Shown here: one piece after another, positions 23,884 to 48,314 of the stretch | Layout: each line of letters opens with the position of its first letter | Position numbering within the stretch: position 1 is the stretch's first letter | Assembly (NCBI GenBank): GCA_003569165.1 | Contig: BGOI01000004.1 | Location: 1-64,000, forward strand | Reading direction: 5' to 3' | Length of the DNA stretch: 64,000 nucleotides | Origin: Opitutia bacterium | GTDB taxonomy: Bacteria > Verrucomicrobiota > Verrucomicrobiia > Opitutales > UBA953 | The notes under the pieces: generated by a model | What the model was told of the DNA's origin: nothing | The model's input: the letters and a program-made list of their open reading frames with translations, nothing else | The model's database searches: none | Position numbers and translations under genes: made by a program

Positions 23884-24120
23884 ATGCTGCAGTCCGTCGA
23901 TCTCGCCGTCTTCTTGGCTTTCCTGGCCGGGCTGGGTGCGGTCGTCCTGTTTGGCTTGCAGGCATGGTACGATCGCCGCGACGTGCTTCTGTCGGACCAC
24001 CGCCGCATCAACTCCGCATTTTCCTGTGTCCGTTGCAATGTGACCTACGTCCGTCCCCGCCTTCGCGAGGAGGCCGTTTGCCCCCACTGCGGCTGGAACA
24101 ATGTTCGCCTCAAGTTCTGA
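23884..24120 (+). CDS. Small membrane protein with a C-terminal zinc ribbon, function unknown
   Basis: 78 aa. A single hydrophobic helix ([20 protein letters not shown], about residues 9-28) is followed by a basic linker. A four-cysteine module follows, CVRC at about residue 48 and CPHC at about residue 66, the spacing of a rubredoxin-like zinc ribbon. The ribbon would face the cytoplasm if the N terminus is outside. It lies between the ribosomal terminator and guaA, in the same direction, 20 bases before guaA. No family name can be given. Confidence 0.6.
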
Positions 24121-24140
24121 ATCCTGCACACTTTCCCACC

Positions 24141-25697
<1,557 letters not shown>

Positions 25698-25713
25698 ACC
25701 GGGGTTTGCCCCG

Positions 25714-25742
25714 TTGACACCCCCTTTGGCCCGTCCTTACCT
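25714..25742 (+). promoter_or_regulatory. Candidate sigma-70 promoter of dnaX
   Basis: TTGACA (25714-25719), a 17-base spacer, then TTACCT (25737-25742). The -35 is a perfect match and the -10 is weak. Initiation about seven bases downstream would fall at or next to the GTG at 25751, so the transcript would be nearly leaderless. A CGGGG/CCCCG hairpin just upstream (25700-25713) may end the guaA transcript. Confidence 0.4.
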
Positions 25743-25750
25743 AGTTGCCA

Positions 25751-27289
25751 GTGTCTGAACCCGGCTTCCAGGTCATCGCGCGCCGCTGGCGTCCCCGTTG
25801 CTTCGACGAACTCGTCGGGCAGGAACACATCGTCAGGACCCTCCGCAATGCGCTCGAGACGAAGCGCATGGCCCATGCCTATCTGTTCATCGGTCCGCGT
25901 GGCACCGGCAAGACGACGACCGCCCGCATCCTGGCCAAGGCCCTGAACTGCGCCGGCGGCCCCAAGCCGGATTTCTCCCTCGAGGATCCTGTCTGCCTGG
26001 CGATCGAGAAGGGTAACTGCCTCGACGTGGTCGAAATCGACGCCGCTTCCAATCGCGGTATCGAAGACGCCAAGCGCATCCGCGACGAATGCCAGTACGC
26101 CCCGAGCAACTGCCCGTTCAAGGTCTTCATCATCGACGAAGTCCACCAGCTTTCGAAGGACGCCTTCAACGCGCTCCTCAAGACGCTCGAGGAACCGCCA
26201 CCCTGGGTTAAGTTCATCCTGGCGACGACCGAGGCGGACAAAATCCTACCGACTATCACCTCCCGCTGTCAGCGCCTGGAGTTCCACCCCATTTCGGAAG
26301 AGGTCATCGCCGCCCAGCTCGCCCGTATCGTCAAGGCCGACGGCGTCACGGCCGACCAGCACGCCCTCACGGCCATCGCCCGCCTCGCCTCTGGCGGTAT
26401 GCGCGACTCCCAGTCGATCCTCGATCAGGTGATTTCGTTCTCCGGCAAGAAAATCACCGAGGCTGACGTGCTTTCCATCTACGGACTCGCCTCCGTCCAG
26501 CAGGTCACCGACCTCTGCCACGGCATCGCCACGTGCGACGGTAAGAAGGTCCTTGCTCTCTGCGATGCCTTCCATGCCGAAGGAAGAGACCTACTCCGCG
26601 TACTCGCCGATCTCCAGGTCCGCGTCCGCGCCGCCACCCTTGATTCGGTCCGCTCTGGCGGAAACTCCGCCCAGCTCGGCGCCCCGCTCGCCACGGAGCA
26701 GCTCGTCCGTCTCCTGGAATGCCTGCAAGAAGGGGAGAACGGTATCCGCCAAGGCCTCTCGCCTCGGGCCAACTTCGAGGTGACGCTGCTCAAGGCAATC
26801 GAGCAAAGTAGGTCGCGATCGATAGACCTCCTCATCAAAGACATCGCCGCCGCCGCAGCTGGTCTCCCTCGGGAGCCCGGCCAAAAAAAAATAAGGACCA
26901 CGGCGGCCGTACTGACGGCGCCTGAGCCTGATGCGGTCGCGCCCGTCGCCACTGCTCCCGCCGTCGCGCCGACGCCTTCGCGCGTCGTTGACGTGCCGAT
27001 CGAGGACTCGGGCATGCTGGAGGATTCTCTGCCGCCTTTGGATGTCGAAGCCGCCGAGACCGAAGCCAGCCACTCTGACCGCCGCGCCGACTTCGTCTTC
27101 CCTGAAGCCGCCCTCGCCAGCCTGCCGGTTGCTGAAGTCGGCAAGACCGCTTTCCCAGGCGAAAAAGAATTCGTCGAGGCAGTGAACGCACTGCCGCCCG
27201 GACTTAAGGACAAACTGAAGGACACCATCGGGGCGGACTTCACGGCCCTACGTCCGATCCCGGCGGGTAAGCTGCGTCGCCCGCTCTGA
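25751..27289 (+). CDS. dnaX: DNA polymerase III subunits gamma and tau
   Basis: Clamp-loader ATPase of the replisome. 512 aa from the GTG at 25751; a TTG at 25745 would add two residues. Walker A GPRGTGKTTT is near residue 46, and IIDEVHQLSKDAFNALLKTLEE and LATTEADKILPTITSRCQ are the Walker B and sensor 1/SRC regions. Of the four zinc ligands of E. coli DnaX, Cys67 and Cys82 remain but the middle pair is Ser76 and Asp79. At 26883-26891 an A9 run falls in frame at residues 378-381. Slipping there would truncate the protein right after domain III, giving a gamma-like form. The C-terminal 130 residues are Ala/Pro-rich, then a short conserved-looking end. Confidence 0.95.
   Translation: MSEPGFQVIARRWRPRCFDELVGQEHIVRTLRNALETKRMAHAYLFIGPRGTGKTTTARILAKALNCAGGPKPDFSLEDPVCLAIEKGNCLDVVEIDAASNRGIEDAKRIRDECQYAPSNCPFKVFIIDEVHQLSKDAFNALLKTLEEPPPWVKFILATTEADKILPTITSRCQRLEFHPISEEVIAAQLARIVKADGVTADQHALTAIARLASGGMRDSQSILDQVISFSGKKITEADVLSIYGLASVQQVTDLCHGIATCDGKKVLALCDAFHAEGRDLLRVLADLQVRVRAATLDSVRSGGNSAQLGAPLATEQLVRLLECLQEGENGIRQGLSPRANFEVTLLKAIEQSRSRSIDLLIKDIAAAAAGLPREPGQKKIRTTAAVLTAPEPDAVAPVATAPAVAPTPSRVVDVPIEDSGMLEDSLPPLDVEAAETEASHSDRRADFVFPEAALASLPVAEVGKTAFPGEKEFVEAVNALPPGLKDKLKDTIGADFTALRPIPAGKLRRPL
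26883..26891 (+). other. A9 slippery run in dnaX, candidate gamma/tau switch
   Basis: Nine consecutive A in a GC-rich gene, read CAA AAA AAA ATA. One A fewer gives CAA AAA AAA TAA, an immediate stop (380 aa). One A more, or a -1 ribosomal slip, reads into AAT AAG and stops at TGA 26923-26925 (391 aa). Either product would keep the ATPase and collar domains and lose the tau tail. Confidence 0.6.
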
Positions 27290-27291
27290 CC

Positions 27292-27750
27292 GTGGCGCCG
27301 TCGACCGAAATCGGCGTCATCTCCGATACGCACGGCCGGCTTCGGGCCGAAGCCATCATCGCCTTAGAAGGATGCGACGTGATTTTCCACGCTGGCGATG
27401 TCTGCGGTCCACTCATCGTGCCGCAGCTCGCTGAGATTGCACCCTGCCATGTGGTCGCAGGTAATTGCGATGACGACGAGACGCTCCCGCTGACCTCGCT
27501 GCAAATTGTAGCCGGGCTGCGTATCCTCTTGCATCACGGACATCTGCCAGTGGACGAGGCTACGTTTCGGCCTGACATCGTGATTACGGGTCATACCCAT
27601 CTACCGAAGATCGAGCAGGATGGTGGCGTACTGCGACTCAACCCGGGCAGCGCCGGCCCTCGTCGCTTTAACCTTCCCGTGACGGTCGCTCGGATTACGG
27701 TGCGAGAGGGCAGGGCGAGGGCCCGCCTCATCACCCTCGACGTGACATGA
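27292..27750 (+). CDS. YfcE/MJ0936-type metallophosphoesterase
   Basis: 152 aa from a GTG at 27292. All metal-binding motifs of the calcineurin-like fold are visible: SDTHG, HAGDVCG, GNCDDDE, HHGH and GHTHLPKI, with NPGSAGPRR near the end. This short family hydrolyses phosphodiesters in vitro; physiological substrates are mostly unknown. The gene starts two bases after dnaX stops, and its stop overlaps the hrpB ATG as ATGA, so the three are co-translated. Confidence 0.88.
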   Translation: MAPSTEIGVISDTHGRLRAEAIIALEGCDVIFHAGDVCGPLIVPQLAEIAPCHVVAGNCDDDETLPLTSLQIVAGLRILLHHGHLPVDEATFRPDIVITGHTHLPKIEQDGGVLRLNPGSAGPRRFNLPVTVARITVREGRARARLITLDVT

Positions 27751-30278
27751 AGCAACCCCTGCCCATCGATACTCTTCAGGACGGACTGGTCGCCGCCTGC
27801 GGTCGCGTGCGCCGGATAGTCCTGCGCGCTCCTACGGGGTCGGGCAAGTCGACCCGCATCCCCCAGATGCTCCTCGACCTGAATCTCGTGCAGGGCCAGA
27901 TCGTCGTCCTACAGCCTCGGCGCATCGCCGCCCGCCTCCTCGCCGCGCGCATCGCGCAGGAACGCGAGGTCCGGCTTGGGGGCGAAGTGGGTTACCAGAT
28001 TCGGTTCGAACGTGTCGAGTCCGCTCAGACGCGCATCAAGTTCGTGACCGAGGCCCTCTTACTCCGGCAGATGGCATCGGATCCCGAACTCAAGGGCGTG
28101 GGCGCGGTGGTGTTTGATGAATTTCACGAACGCAACTTGCACTCCGATGTGGCGTTGGCCCTCGCCCGCCGCCTCCAGGAGACCCATCGCCCGGATCTGT
28201 TGATCATGGCGATGTCCGCGACGCTCGATACCGATGCTGTTGCGAAGTGGCTTGGCTCGGCTGAGACCTTAGCTGCCGACGGTCGCGCTTATCCGGTCCA
28301 GATTGAGTATACCCACATGCCGCGTAATTCGACCCGGCCGATCTGGGATGCCGCGGCAGAACAGGTGCGTCGCGTTCTGCAGGAAGAGGACGAAGGCGAC
28401 ATCCTGGTCTTCATGCCGGGGTCATATGAAATCATGCGCACCATCGGCGCGGTGCGGAATCTTCCCCAATCCGGTGGCGTCGATATCCTTCCACTCTACG
28501 GCGAACTGCCTCCCGAAGAGCAGGATCGCGCCGTCAAGCCGAGCCCAGGCCGCAAGGTCATCGTGGCGACTAATGTCGCCGAGACCTCGCTGACGATTCC
28601 CGGCGTCCGCGCCGTGGTCGACGCTGGCCTCGCCCGTATCGCCCGCTTCGACCCGCATCGCGGTATCGACACCTTACTCGTTGAGCCAGTCTCGCAGGCC
28701 TCTGCTGAGCAGCGCGCTGGTCGCGCCGGCCGAACCGGCCCCGGCCGTTGCATCCGACTTTGGTCGCAGACCGACCACGAAGCCCGCCCGCTCCGCGAAG
28801 TCCCGGAAATCAAGCGAGTCGACCTCTCCGAGACCATCCTGTTGCTGCTTTCTTCCGGCTGGGGTGACGCCGCTACTTTCCCTTGGTATGAGAAGCCCGA
28901 CGACAAGGCCCTGCAGCGCGCGTTGACCGTTCTCGCGGATCTTGGCGCCGTCGATACGCAGGGCAAGTTGACGCCGATTGGACGCCGTATGTCGGTCTTC
29001 CCGGCGCACCCGCGTTATGCGCGCATGCTGCTCGCTGCGGGCGAGCTGGATTGCGTCTTCGAAGTCTGCCGCATCGCCGGCCTCGCCCAAGGCCGCGACA
29101 TCTTATTCCGTAAGGTCGACGACCGCACCGAGAACGCCCGAGACTCCGTCGAACAGGAAGATGGCTCCGACTTCTTCCCGCGCCTCGCGTTACTGCAGCA
29201 GGCAATCGACCTCAAGTTCGACGCCGACGCCTGCGATCGTTTTGGCGTGCACGGCCAAGCCGCGCGCCAGGCCGACCAGGCCGCCCGTCAGTTCCTGCGC
29301 CTCGCGGAAGGGCAGGGGCTTCCCGTCAGCGACCGCATCGTCGACCCCGCCGCGATTCGCCGCTGCCTCCTGCTCGGCTTCTCTGACCGCCTCGCCGTTA
29401 GGCTCGATGCGGGCACCCTCCGCTGCGCCTTGGTGCACGGTCGTACCGGCGAGCTCCGCCGCGAATCCTCCATCCGTAATGCCAAGCTGTTAGTTGCGGC
29501 GGAAGTCGATGAGATCCAAGCGCGCGGAGGCGTGACCACCTATCTCTCTCTGGCTACCGCCATCGAGGAGTCCTGGTTGCAGGAGTTATTCCCCTCCGAA
29601 TTCTCCACGGTCAACCATGTCCGTTATGACGCCACCCAGCGTCGCGTCGTCACGCGCGTCGAACGGCGCTTCCGCGACCTGGTACTCGAAGCCAAGGAGC
29701 GCGATGACGCCCCGTCCGACGCCGCCAGCCGTATCCTCGCCGAGGAAGTCGCCGCCGGCCGGCTGGAACTGGAGAAGTGGGACGCGCCAGTGGATGCGTG
29801 GATTCGCCGGGTGAACTTCCTCTCGAAGCATTGTCCCGAACTAGGCATCCCTGTCTTCGATGAAGCCGCTCGTCGCATGGTGATTGAAGAAGTCTGCACC
29901 GGGGCCGTCGCCTATCGCGATATCCGCGATCGCCCCGTCTTCGGCGTCGTCCGCGGTTGGCTGACACATGAGCAGGCCATGGCGCTCGAGACCTATTGCC
30001 CGGAGAAGCTCATTCTCCCGCGAAAGAAACATCCTGCTCGTATCGAGTACACCGCCGACGGCCAGGCGGAGATCGAGGCGACCGTACAGGAGCTCTATGA
30101 TTTCCCGGGCAGCAAGCTGCGGGTGTGCCTCGGCAAGGTGCCGATGGTTATTTGCATTCAGTCGCCTGCCCGCCGCACGCAGCAGCGCACCACCGATCTC
30201 GACGCCTTCTGGAAAGGTTCCTACGAAGGCGTGAAGAAGGAGCTACGCGGTCGTTATCCTAGGCACGAATGGCGCTGA
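27747..30278 (+). CDS. hrpB: ATP-dependent helicase HrpB
   Basis: DEAH-family RNA/DNA helicase-like protein. 843 aa. Motif I is APTGSGKSTRIPQM, motif II is VVFDEFHERNLHSD (DEFH, as usual in HrpB), motif III is MSATLD and motif VI is QRAGRAGRTGPG. The C-terminal region has the HrpB-specific RIEYTADGQAEIEATVQELY block. Its start overlaps the phosphoesterase stop. In E. coli the gene is dispensable and its role is unclear. The exonuclease gene follows after four bases. Confidence 0.93.
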   Translation: MKQPLPIDTLQDGLVAACGRVRRIVLRAPTGSGKSTRIPQMLLDLNLVQGQIVVLQPRRIAARLLAARIAQEREVRLGGEVGYQIRFERVESAQTRIKFVTEALLLRQMASDPELKGVGAVVFDEFHERNLHSDVALALARRLQETHRPDLLIMAMSATLDTDAVAKWLGSAETLAADGRAYPVQIEYTHMPRNSTRPIWDAAAEQVRRVLQEEDEGDILVFMPGSYEIMRTIGAVRNLPQSGGVDILPLYGELPPEEQDRAVKPSPGRKVIVATNVAETSLTIPGVRAVVDAGLARIARFDPHRGIDTLLVEPVSQASAEQRAGRAGRTGPGRCIRLWSQTDHEARPLREVPEIKRVDLSETILLLLSSGWGDAATFPWYEKPDDKALQRALTVLADLGAVDTQGKLTPIGRRMSVFPAHPRYARMLLAAGELDCVFEVCRIAGLAQGRDILFRKVDDRTENARDSVEQEDGSDFFPRLALLQQAIDLKFDADACDRFGVHGQAARQADQAARQFLRLAEGQGLPVSDRIVDPAAIRRCLLLGFSDRLAVRLDAGTLRCALVHGRTGELRRESSIRNAKLLVAAEVDEIQARGGVTTYLSLATAIEESWLQELFPSEFSTVNHVRYDATQRRVVTRVERRFRDLVLEAKERDDAPSDAASRILAEEVAAGRLELEKWDAPVDAWIRRVNFLSKHCPELGIPVFDEAARRMVIEEVCTGAVAYRDIRDRPVFGVVRGWLTHEQAMALETYCPEKLILPRKKHPARIEYTADGQAEIEATVQELYDFPGSKLRVCLGKVPMVICIQSPARRTQQRTTDLDAFWKGSYEGVKKELRGRYPRHEWR

Positions 30279-48239: not shown

Positions 48240-48314
48240 AGGACGGTAGCTCAATTGGCAGAGAAGCGGTCTCAAAACCGTTGGTTGTGGGTTCTCCTCC
48301 CTCCCGCCCTGCCA
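48240..48314 (+). tRNA. Degenerate tRNA-Trp-like gene
   Basis: It aligns from end to end with tRNA-Trp (G discriminator, encoded CCA) and occupies the usual tRNA-Trp place between tuf and secE. It is 75 bases, one short: the anticodon loop reads CTCAAA where CTCCAAA is expected, so CCA cannot be formed. Further faults: acceptor mismatch A4-C69, D-stem mismatch G10-A25, T-stem mismatch T50-T64, and T loop TTCTCCT in place of TTCRANY, losing R57 and A58. It looks like a pseudo-tRNA unless the assembly is wrong here. Confidence 0.65.

Follow-up and report, generated by a model that had tools for sequence, protein, structure and literature searches.

In Thermus thermophilus, dnaX carries a run of nine A residues (A9) at which transcriptional slippage occurs, and the genomic frame encodes tau (Larsen et al., 2000, as summarised in PMC5009743 and PMC1088944). 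This slippage is described in terms of extra A's, the review passages that describe it name no hairpin, and the review relates the two lysine tRNAs of Thermus to slippage by the polymerase (PMC5009743). In the two-ORF dnaX genes collected with GeneTack, gamma is the genomic product and tau lies behind a run of A7 to A10; there were 17 such genes, all with -1 shifts, and nine of the species have A10 (Antonov et al., 2013, PMC3711429). That survey included four Verrucomicrobia genomes, and some of its two-ORF dnaX genes may come from them. In an IS630 element of Roseiflexus, a hairpin that immediately precedes the slip motif T5C5 leads to RNA lacking one residue (Penno et al., 2015, as cited in PMC5009743).

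We analysed a dnaX gene with an A9 run in a genome of the order Opitutales. Like that of T. thermophilus, this gene has A9, a genomic frame that encodes tau and stops close by in each of the other two frames, and the genome has two lysine tRNAs; the gene differs in belonging to another phylum, in a predicted hairpin that abuts the run from upstream, and in conserving the A8/A11 stop. With Roseiflexus IS630 it would share a GC-rich hairpin in the nascent RNA directly before the slip motif and a product with one residue fewer; there the gene is a transposase with T5C5, whereas here the motif is A9 or A10 in a housekeeping gene and the deletion is a deduction. As in the E. coli dnaX -1 frameshift, the purpose would be to make tau and gamma, and a Shine-Dalgarno-like GGGAG precedes an A-rich heptamer; unlike in E. 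coli, no strong stem-loop follows and the conserved stop lies outside the -1 frame. The gene is very probably programmed to yield both clamp-loader proteins, and we put the probability that it does so by transcriptional slippage on A9 at roughly 0.75. No earlier report of slippage or frameshifting in dnaX of Opitutales was found among the literature matches listed (for the broad query, the best 10 of 55), a scope to which the species of the supplementary figure of PMC3711429 and most subscription papers did not belong. The device is known in kind; its switching of frames across the order and its hairpin next to the run look like novel variants.

The dnaX gene and its A9 run

The window (the whole stretch of 64,000 nucleotides that was analysed) is part of contig C4 of an assembly of 2.03 Mb in 37 contigs. 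The features referred to below are as follows.

25751..27289, plus strand: dnaX, GTG start, genomic frame encoding tau of 512 aa; identified as DnaX by TIGR02397/NF004046 and by Pfam PF13177, PF22608 and PF12169
26858..26881, plus strand: predicted RNA hairpin GCUGG.CUCC(CUCG)GGAG.CCGGC, nine pairs with one U/C mismatch
26883..26891, plus strand: proposed A9 slip site, read directly, inside CAA AAA AAA ATA
26892..26894, plus strand: TAA abutting the run, the stop reached with A8 or A11 and the proposed end of gamma (380-381 aa); TAR in 48/48 close loci
26892..27286, plus strand: coding sequence specific to tau (linker plus C-terminal domain), part of the profile of genomic-frame tau C-termini
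26923..26925, plus strand: TGA that ends the 391-aa product of A10 or of a -1 ribosomal slip, at a position that is not kept in relatives

The dnaX product scored 385 bits against TIGR02397 (cut-off 250) and 411.8 bits against NF004046 (cut-off 400), and the AAA+ ATPase, lid and domain III models (PF13177, PF22608, PF12169) all matched above their cut-offs, which places it in the clamp-loader family. A TTG in the same frame lies at 25745, 6 nt 5' of the GTG start. Counted from the GTG at 25751, the run is read as CAA AAA AAA ATA AGG, with Gln378, Lys379, Lys380 and Ile381 over the A residues. It therefore occupies residues 378-381, 26-29 residues beyond the points where Pfam domain III (residue 352) and the N-terminal DnaX model (TIGR02397, dnaX_nterm; residue 349) end. 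The predicted product is 512 aa (55.1 kDa) from A9, 380 aa (41.4 kDa) from A8 with the stop TAA at 26892-26894, 391 aa (42.5 kDa) from A10 with the stop TGA at 26923-26925, and 381 aa from A11. Direct reading, the domain ends and these products agree with an earlier note on this DNA, which had placed an in-frame A9 past domain III, an immediate TAA after the loss of one A, the TGA after the gain of one A or a -1 ribosomal slip, and gamma-sized proteins of 380-391 aa as the shortened products. By eye, from the translations, the neighbours of dnaX resemble a GMP synthase (23964-25697), a small metallophosphoesterase (27292-27750) and a DEAH-type helicase (27747-30278).

Origin of the run: chance and assembly error

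The count of A9 within the window would not by itself exclude chance: there is one, 0.21 were expected from shuffles, and at least one arose in 15 of 100 shuffles. The whole assembly holds only two places with A9 or longer, and none with T9 or longer. The second place, beyond the window, is an A17 in an HU-like gene (G000:C27:1059-1075; L002) that is split over two frames, and 17 relatives have no such run (the longest A-runs there being 2-4). Since the A17 is probably an assembly error, the dnaX A9 is the only credible one in the assembly. When synonymous codons were permuted within the dnaX of the window, a run of at least nine A appeared in 1.5% of 200 trials; in AT-richer families codon choice readily produces such a run (mean 17%, median 9.5%, 102 loci).

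The same rarity was found within the genus, where the dnaX run was the sole A9/T9 of the assembly in 33 of 55 genomes. The motif GGGAGYCYGGCS-A9-TAR was present in 48 of the 55 congeners, including all 33 with a single A9/T9, and in each of the 22 with completeness of 90% or more and contamination of 5% or less. Among the seven without a match is G309, whose dnaX run is A10 (L358). The scan of congeners for A9 gave 29 further loci, 24 of dnaX type and five with other A9 runs. Assembly counts, codon permutation, congener counts and the codon conservation described below together rule out chance as the origin of the run, and assembly error is ruled out by the same A9 in 45 of 48 close loci. The proposal that a slip site at the same functional place is unlikely to be a coincidence was thus borne out by rarity in the assembly and its congeners as well as by conservation in relatives.

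Conservation in close relatives

The 49 nearest loci (L011-L059) were compared, and 48 were counted after setting aside the more distant L058, which carries A10. Some of their contigs belong to the same genomes as our G handles, and the two sets overlap. The run lies at the same codon in every case, with A9 in 45 loci, A10 in L044 and L052, and A11 in L046. An interrupted run in close relatives, which the earlier note had named as evidence against its reading, was seen in 0/48. The dnaX runs of L044, L046, L052 and L358 are assembled as A10, A11, A10 and A10 in a group where A9 is the rule, so that the genomic frame would be gamma; these may be real frame switches or errors of assembly or sequencing.

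Codon usage was analysed in the 45 loci of identical spacing (leaving out the partial L045 and L057 and also L056, whose spacing is off by 3 nt) and was scored to codon 388, with the tau part beyond that codon outside the analysis. Residues 375-381 (GAG CCC GGC CAA AAA AAA ATA) had no synonymous variation wherever the residue was kept, which was the case in 45/45 loci except for Pro (41/45) and Gln (38/45). Upstream, only 2 of 274 conserved-residue codons were invariant and the mean frequency of the top codon was 0.68. Of 340 six-codon windows ranked by synonymous conservation, the top eight all lay around the run. The ATA that ends the block was kept in 45/45 although ATA accounts for only 46 of 1167 Ile codons upstream; the Lys codons upstream were 649 AAG and 171 AAA.

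The codon after ATA varied (R 17, K 10, N 10, G 4, S 3, E 1, D 1; 46 loci), always in such a way that TAR was left, and TAA or TAG stood directly 3' of the run in all 48 close loci. The stop met with A10, or by a ribosome that slips by -1, lay anywhere from 3 to 120 codons off in the same 48, the distant ones including 63, 100, 100 and 120 codons. The fact that the abutting stop is always kept while the other drifts argues that the stop under selection is that of a run shortened by one A (or lengthened by two). The expectation that the run and both nearby stops would persist amid varying codons stood for the run (48/48), for the variable next codon and for the A8/A11 stop (48/48), and failed for the A10 stop.

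Reading frames across the order

We extended the comparison to the order, taken as Opitutales. From 132 genomes, 122 had a usable dnaX, giving 123 loci (G119 has two); ten genomes with only partial, paralogous or no matches were excluded, as was an additional dnaX-like locus in G108. A run of at least nine A lay at P-loop +317 to +341 in 102 of the 123 loci, so that a homopolymer just past the clamp-loader core was conserved in 48/48 close loci and in 102/123 across the order. The 21 loci without it belong to families f6, f7, f25, f27 and f28, to genus g10 of f8 and to g7 of f5, so the device is not indispensable in the order. Two of them come from f8 g10, whose sister genus is of the A10 type with two frames: L111 has A8 and L119 no run of A6 or more, each with one unbroken tau frame, an apparent loss of the slip site. 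The longest variant noted was the A13 of L113 (family f15) at P+330, with a genomic tau.

Frames were scored in the 99 loci with enough downstream sequence; L171, L186 and L192, where the contig cuts the tau end, were left out. Tau lay in the genomic frame in 33 loci, in the frame with one A more in 45 and in the frame with one A fewer in 21 (L096 having been reassigned by homology from one A more to genomic tau). A profile built from 18 genomic-frame tau C-termini (threshold E<0.01; L174 left out) matched 33/33 genomic-frame taus, 18 of them its own seeds, and it also matched 40/44 taus in the +1A frame, 18/21 in the -1A frame and 0/196 controls from other frames. Tau was therefore split over two frames in 66 of the 99 loci, with detectable homology in 58 of the 65 tested.

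Stops in the two non-tau frames followed at a median of 1 and 5 codons, compared with medians of 9 and 36 elsewhere in these genes, and the farther of the two came within 15 codons in 91/99 loci of the order. On a tree of the DnaX core (68 rows, L174 left out; 24 of 65 inner branches weakly supported), where four states are distinguished, the pattern needs no fewer than 18 changes of state, and genomic tau and genomic gamma must be exchanged at least 10 times. Switches were seen even within genera: f20 g48 (A9 tau, A10 gamma), f8 g33 (A10, A11), f24 g43 (A11 tau; A10 gamma in an incomplete locus) and f1 g2 (both A10). The 66 loci with genomic gamma and tau behind the run are like the two-ORF dnaX genes of GeneTack; unlike that set, in which every shift is -1, three states alternate here within one order and a +1 state occurs.

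Outside the order, a run of at least nine A past domain III was found in 0/38 genomes of other orders of the same class (26 and 14 loci, with two genomes common to both samples; the sequence of L231 ends at P+315). In other classes of the phylum it was found in 9 of 34 loci, from f63, f68, f70, f71, f75 and f80 (three of the 34 end at P+360 to P+373), a distribution that suggests separate origins. Each of these nine combines one long frame with two short ones, none is of the deletion type, and therefore they provide no test of the link to a hairpin proposed below. The f70 genes have two runs each (L274 at P+332 and P+359, L300 at P+333 and P+354), all A9 or A10 and each with nearby out-of-frame stops.

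Proposed slippage by RNA polymerase

In the mechanism we propose, RNA polymerase would realign on the A9/T9 hybrid and release mRNAs with A8, A9, A10 and more. Ordinary translation of the A9 mRNA would give tau of 512 aa, A8 or A11 mRNA would give gamma of 380-381 aa through the TAA abutting the run, and A10 mRNA would give a gamma of 391 aa. A hairpin that folds in the nascent transcript, at the upstream end of its hybrid with the DNA, would probably raise slippage and bias it to one A fewer in the genus, in f20 and in f23.

The occurrence of both shift directions, together with at least 10 switches between genomic tau and genomic gamma, argues for slippage by RNA polymerase over a fixed -1 ribosomal shift; differing shift directions have been taken to imply transcriptional realignment (Antonov et al., 2013, PMC3711429). 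The genome has tRNA-Lys genes with anticodons TTT and CTT side by side (39 tRNA matches, anticodons examined in 30). Within the window, a tRNA-like gene whose anticodon could not be assigned lies at 48240-48314 (ARAGORN tRNA-???; low Rfam tRNA score of 38.3 bits). The suggestion of the earlier note that gamma and tau arise by slippage on A9 is supported by conservation of the run, by the order-wide pattern and by tau homology in the shifted frames, while from these sequences we infer that slippage occurs, that RNA polymerase performs it, that the hairpin drives it and in what ratio the products form.

A candidate hairpin upstream of the run

The earlier note had found no obvious stimulatory structure downstream, and this holds: the 60 nt 3' of the run gave z -0.37 in the genome of the window, and across the order the mean z was -0.42 over 102 rows (two set to 0 for short sequence), with no consistent structure. 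The candidate lies upstream instead, in the predicted hairpin at 26858-26881, whose 3' end is 1 nt 5' of the run. All nine pairs were kept in 47 of 48 close loci. All five synonymous variants seen in the hairpin keep pairing, as would 11 of the 23 possible (P=0.014), and in L030-type loci several bases have changed with pairing still kept. Members of f1 g1, f20 and f23 have hairpins in the same register, that of f23 with a two-sided change from G-C to A-U, and f1 g3 lacks the two outer pairs. A similar hairpin in L148 of f16 is shifted by one base and was left out of the hairpin collection and of the covariation analysis. Covariation was modest, with two-sided changes in 2/10 pairs and 87.8% of paired cells against 86.0% when shuffled (reached in 8/500). 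The folding energy in the window is ordinary for its composition (z -0.85, 35/200 shuffles as good; rank 7 of 25), and this hairpin is not among the 26 best rows of the tree-based comparison.

We asked how hairpins are distributed over the frame states, using no more than two loci for each genus and state and leaving out L113. The mean z of the abutting hairpin was -2.3 in one-A-fewer loci (n=11), -0.2 in one-A-more loci (n=41) and -1.1 in genomic-tau loci (n=24). One-A-fewer and one-A-more loci differed per genus (Mann-Whitney P=1.8e-5, 7 vs 33 genera) and per family (P=0.0016, 5 vs 8 families), both values ignoring relatedness. Among the tree rows, hairpins reached p<0.05 in 5/7 one-A-fewer, 5/18 genomic-tau and 1/33 one-A-more cases. 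The fit is uneven: f8 is weak (p=0.116), f17 has a hairpin in one of the two rows tested, and insertion-type loci have hairpins too (4/33 at p<0.1, and L291). With 2-4 independent sister pairs on the tree, a sign test of hairpin against direction cannot reach 0.05. The link between hairpin and one-A-fewer product in the genus, f20 and f23 is thus suggestive only, and we rate a bias of slippage by the hairpin towards deletion of one A at slightly under even chances.

A search of 25700-27400 with Rfam gave no dnaX element and one sub-threshold sR51 match. An antisense terminator is ruled out by the order of the elements, since the T-run comes before the hairpin when the minus strand is read.

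Less likely alternatives: ribosomal frameshifting or a single product

A programmed -1 ribosomal frameshift of the E. coli kind, on A_AAA_AAA with help from the Shine-Dalgarno-like GGGAG, would also make gamma. A perfect A AAA AAA heptamer does stand in frame with GGGAG upstream of it, and in dnaX of E. coli K-12 AGGGAG stands 10 nt ahead of AAAAAAG. Beyond this in-frame A AAA AAR heptamer, the other features of the E. coli type, a constrained -1 stop and a 3' stem-loop, were not found: the -1 stop is 3-120 codons off (at least 100 in 3/48) while the stop of the other frame is immediate in 48/48, and downstream structure in this genome is no stronger than given above. In addition, GGGAG is absent from eight distinct f20/f23 sequences that keep hairpin and run (some have GAGGA), two lysine tRNAs are present, and a -1 shift could not reach the tau that lies in the +1 frame in 21/99 loci. 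We regard this route as unlikely.

If the refolding of the upstream hairpin stimulated a +1 ribosomal frameshift, gamma would end at the abutting TAA. The position of the hairpin, which stops 1 nt short of the run, and the +1 frame of the conserved stop fit this idea, and in yeast an upstream hairpin is reported to stimulate +1 frameshifting (PMC6321510). A +1 shift, however, leaves unexplained the 45 loci in which tau is reached by adding one A to the same type of run, and a separate mechanism would be needed for each family; we consider it less probable again than the -1 shift.

Least probable of all is a single DnaX, with run and hairpin kept for a protein linker, for DNA or RNA structure or by chance: the 21/123 loci without a run speak for it and the two-protein output is read from sequence, but tau is split over two frames in 66/99 loci with shifted-frame homology in 58/65 tested, stops cluster in both non-tau frames, and a need of the protein would leave the conservation of ATA and TAR unexplained.

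Discussion

Slippage by RNA polymerase on the A-run would account for both directions of the frame shift. On a tentative reading that we hold somewhat below even the hairpin bias, the slip site is kept while the DNA frame drifts freely between tau and gamma, since slippage makes that frame nearly irrelevant, and lineages of the one-A-fewer type evolved an abutting hairpin that directs deletion. The role of gamma has long been disputed (2016 review, PMC5009743). Because the slip site is kept in most families while tau and gamma repeatedly exchange places as the genomic product, our results suggest that both DnaX products are under selection.

For annotation, the genomic frame ends at gamma in 66 of 99 loci, and plain ORF calling would miss the C-terminus of tau there. 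The order offers a natural series (A9, A10 and A11; with and without hairpin; one A more and one A fewer) for measuring the direction of slippage and the ratio of its products. If the hairpin does direct deletion, then RNA-polymerase slippage under the control of a stem-loop would serve a core cellular gene, beyond the insertion sequence.
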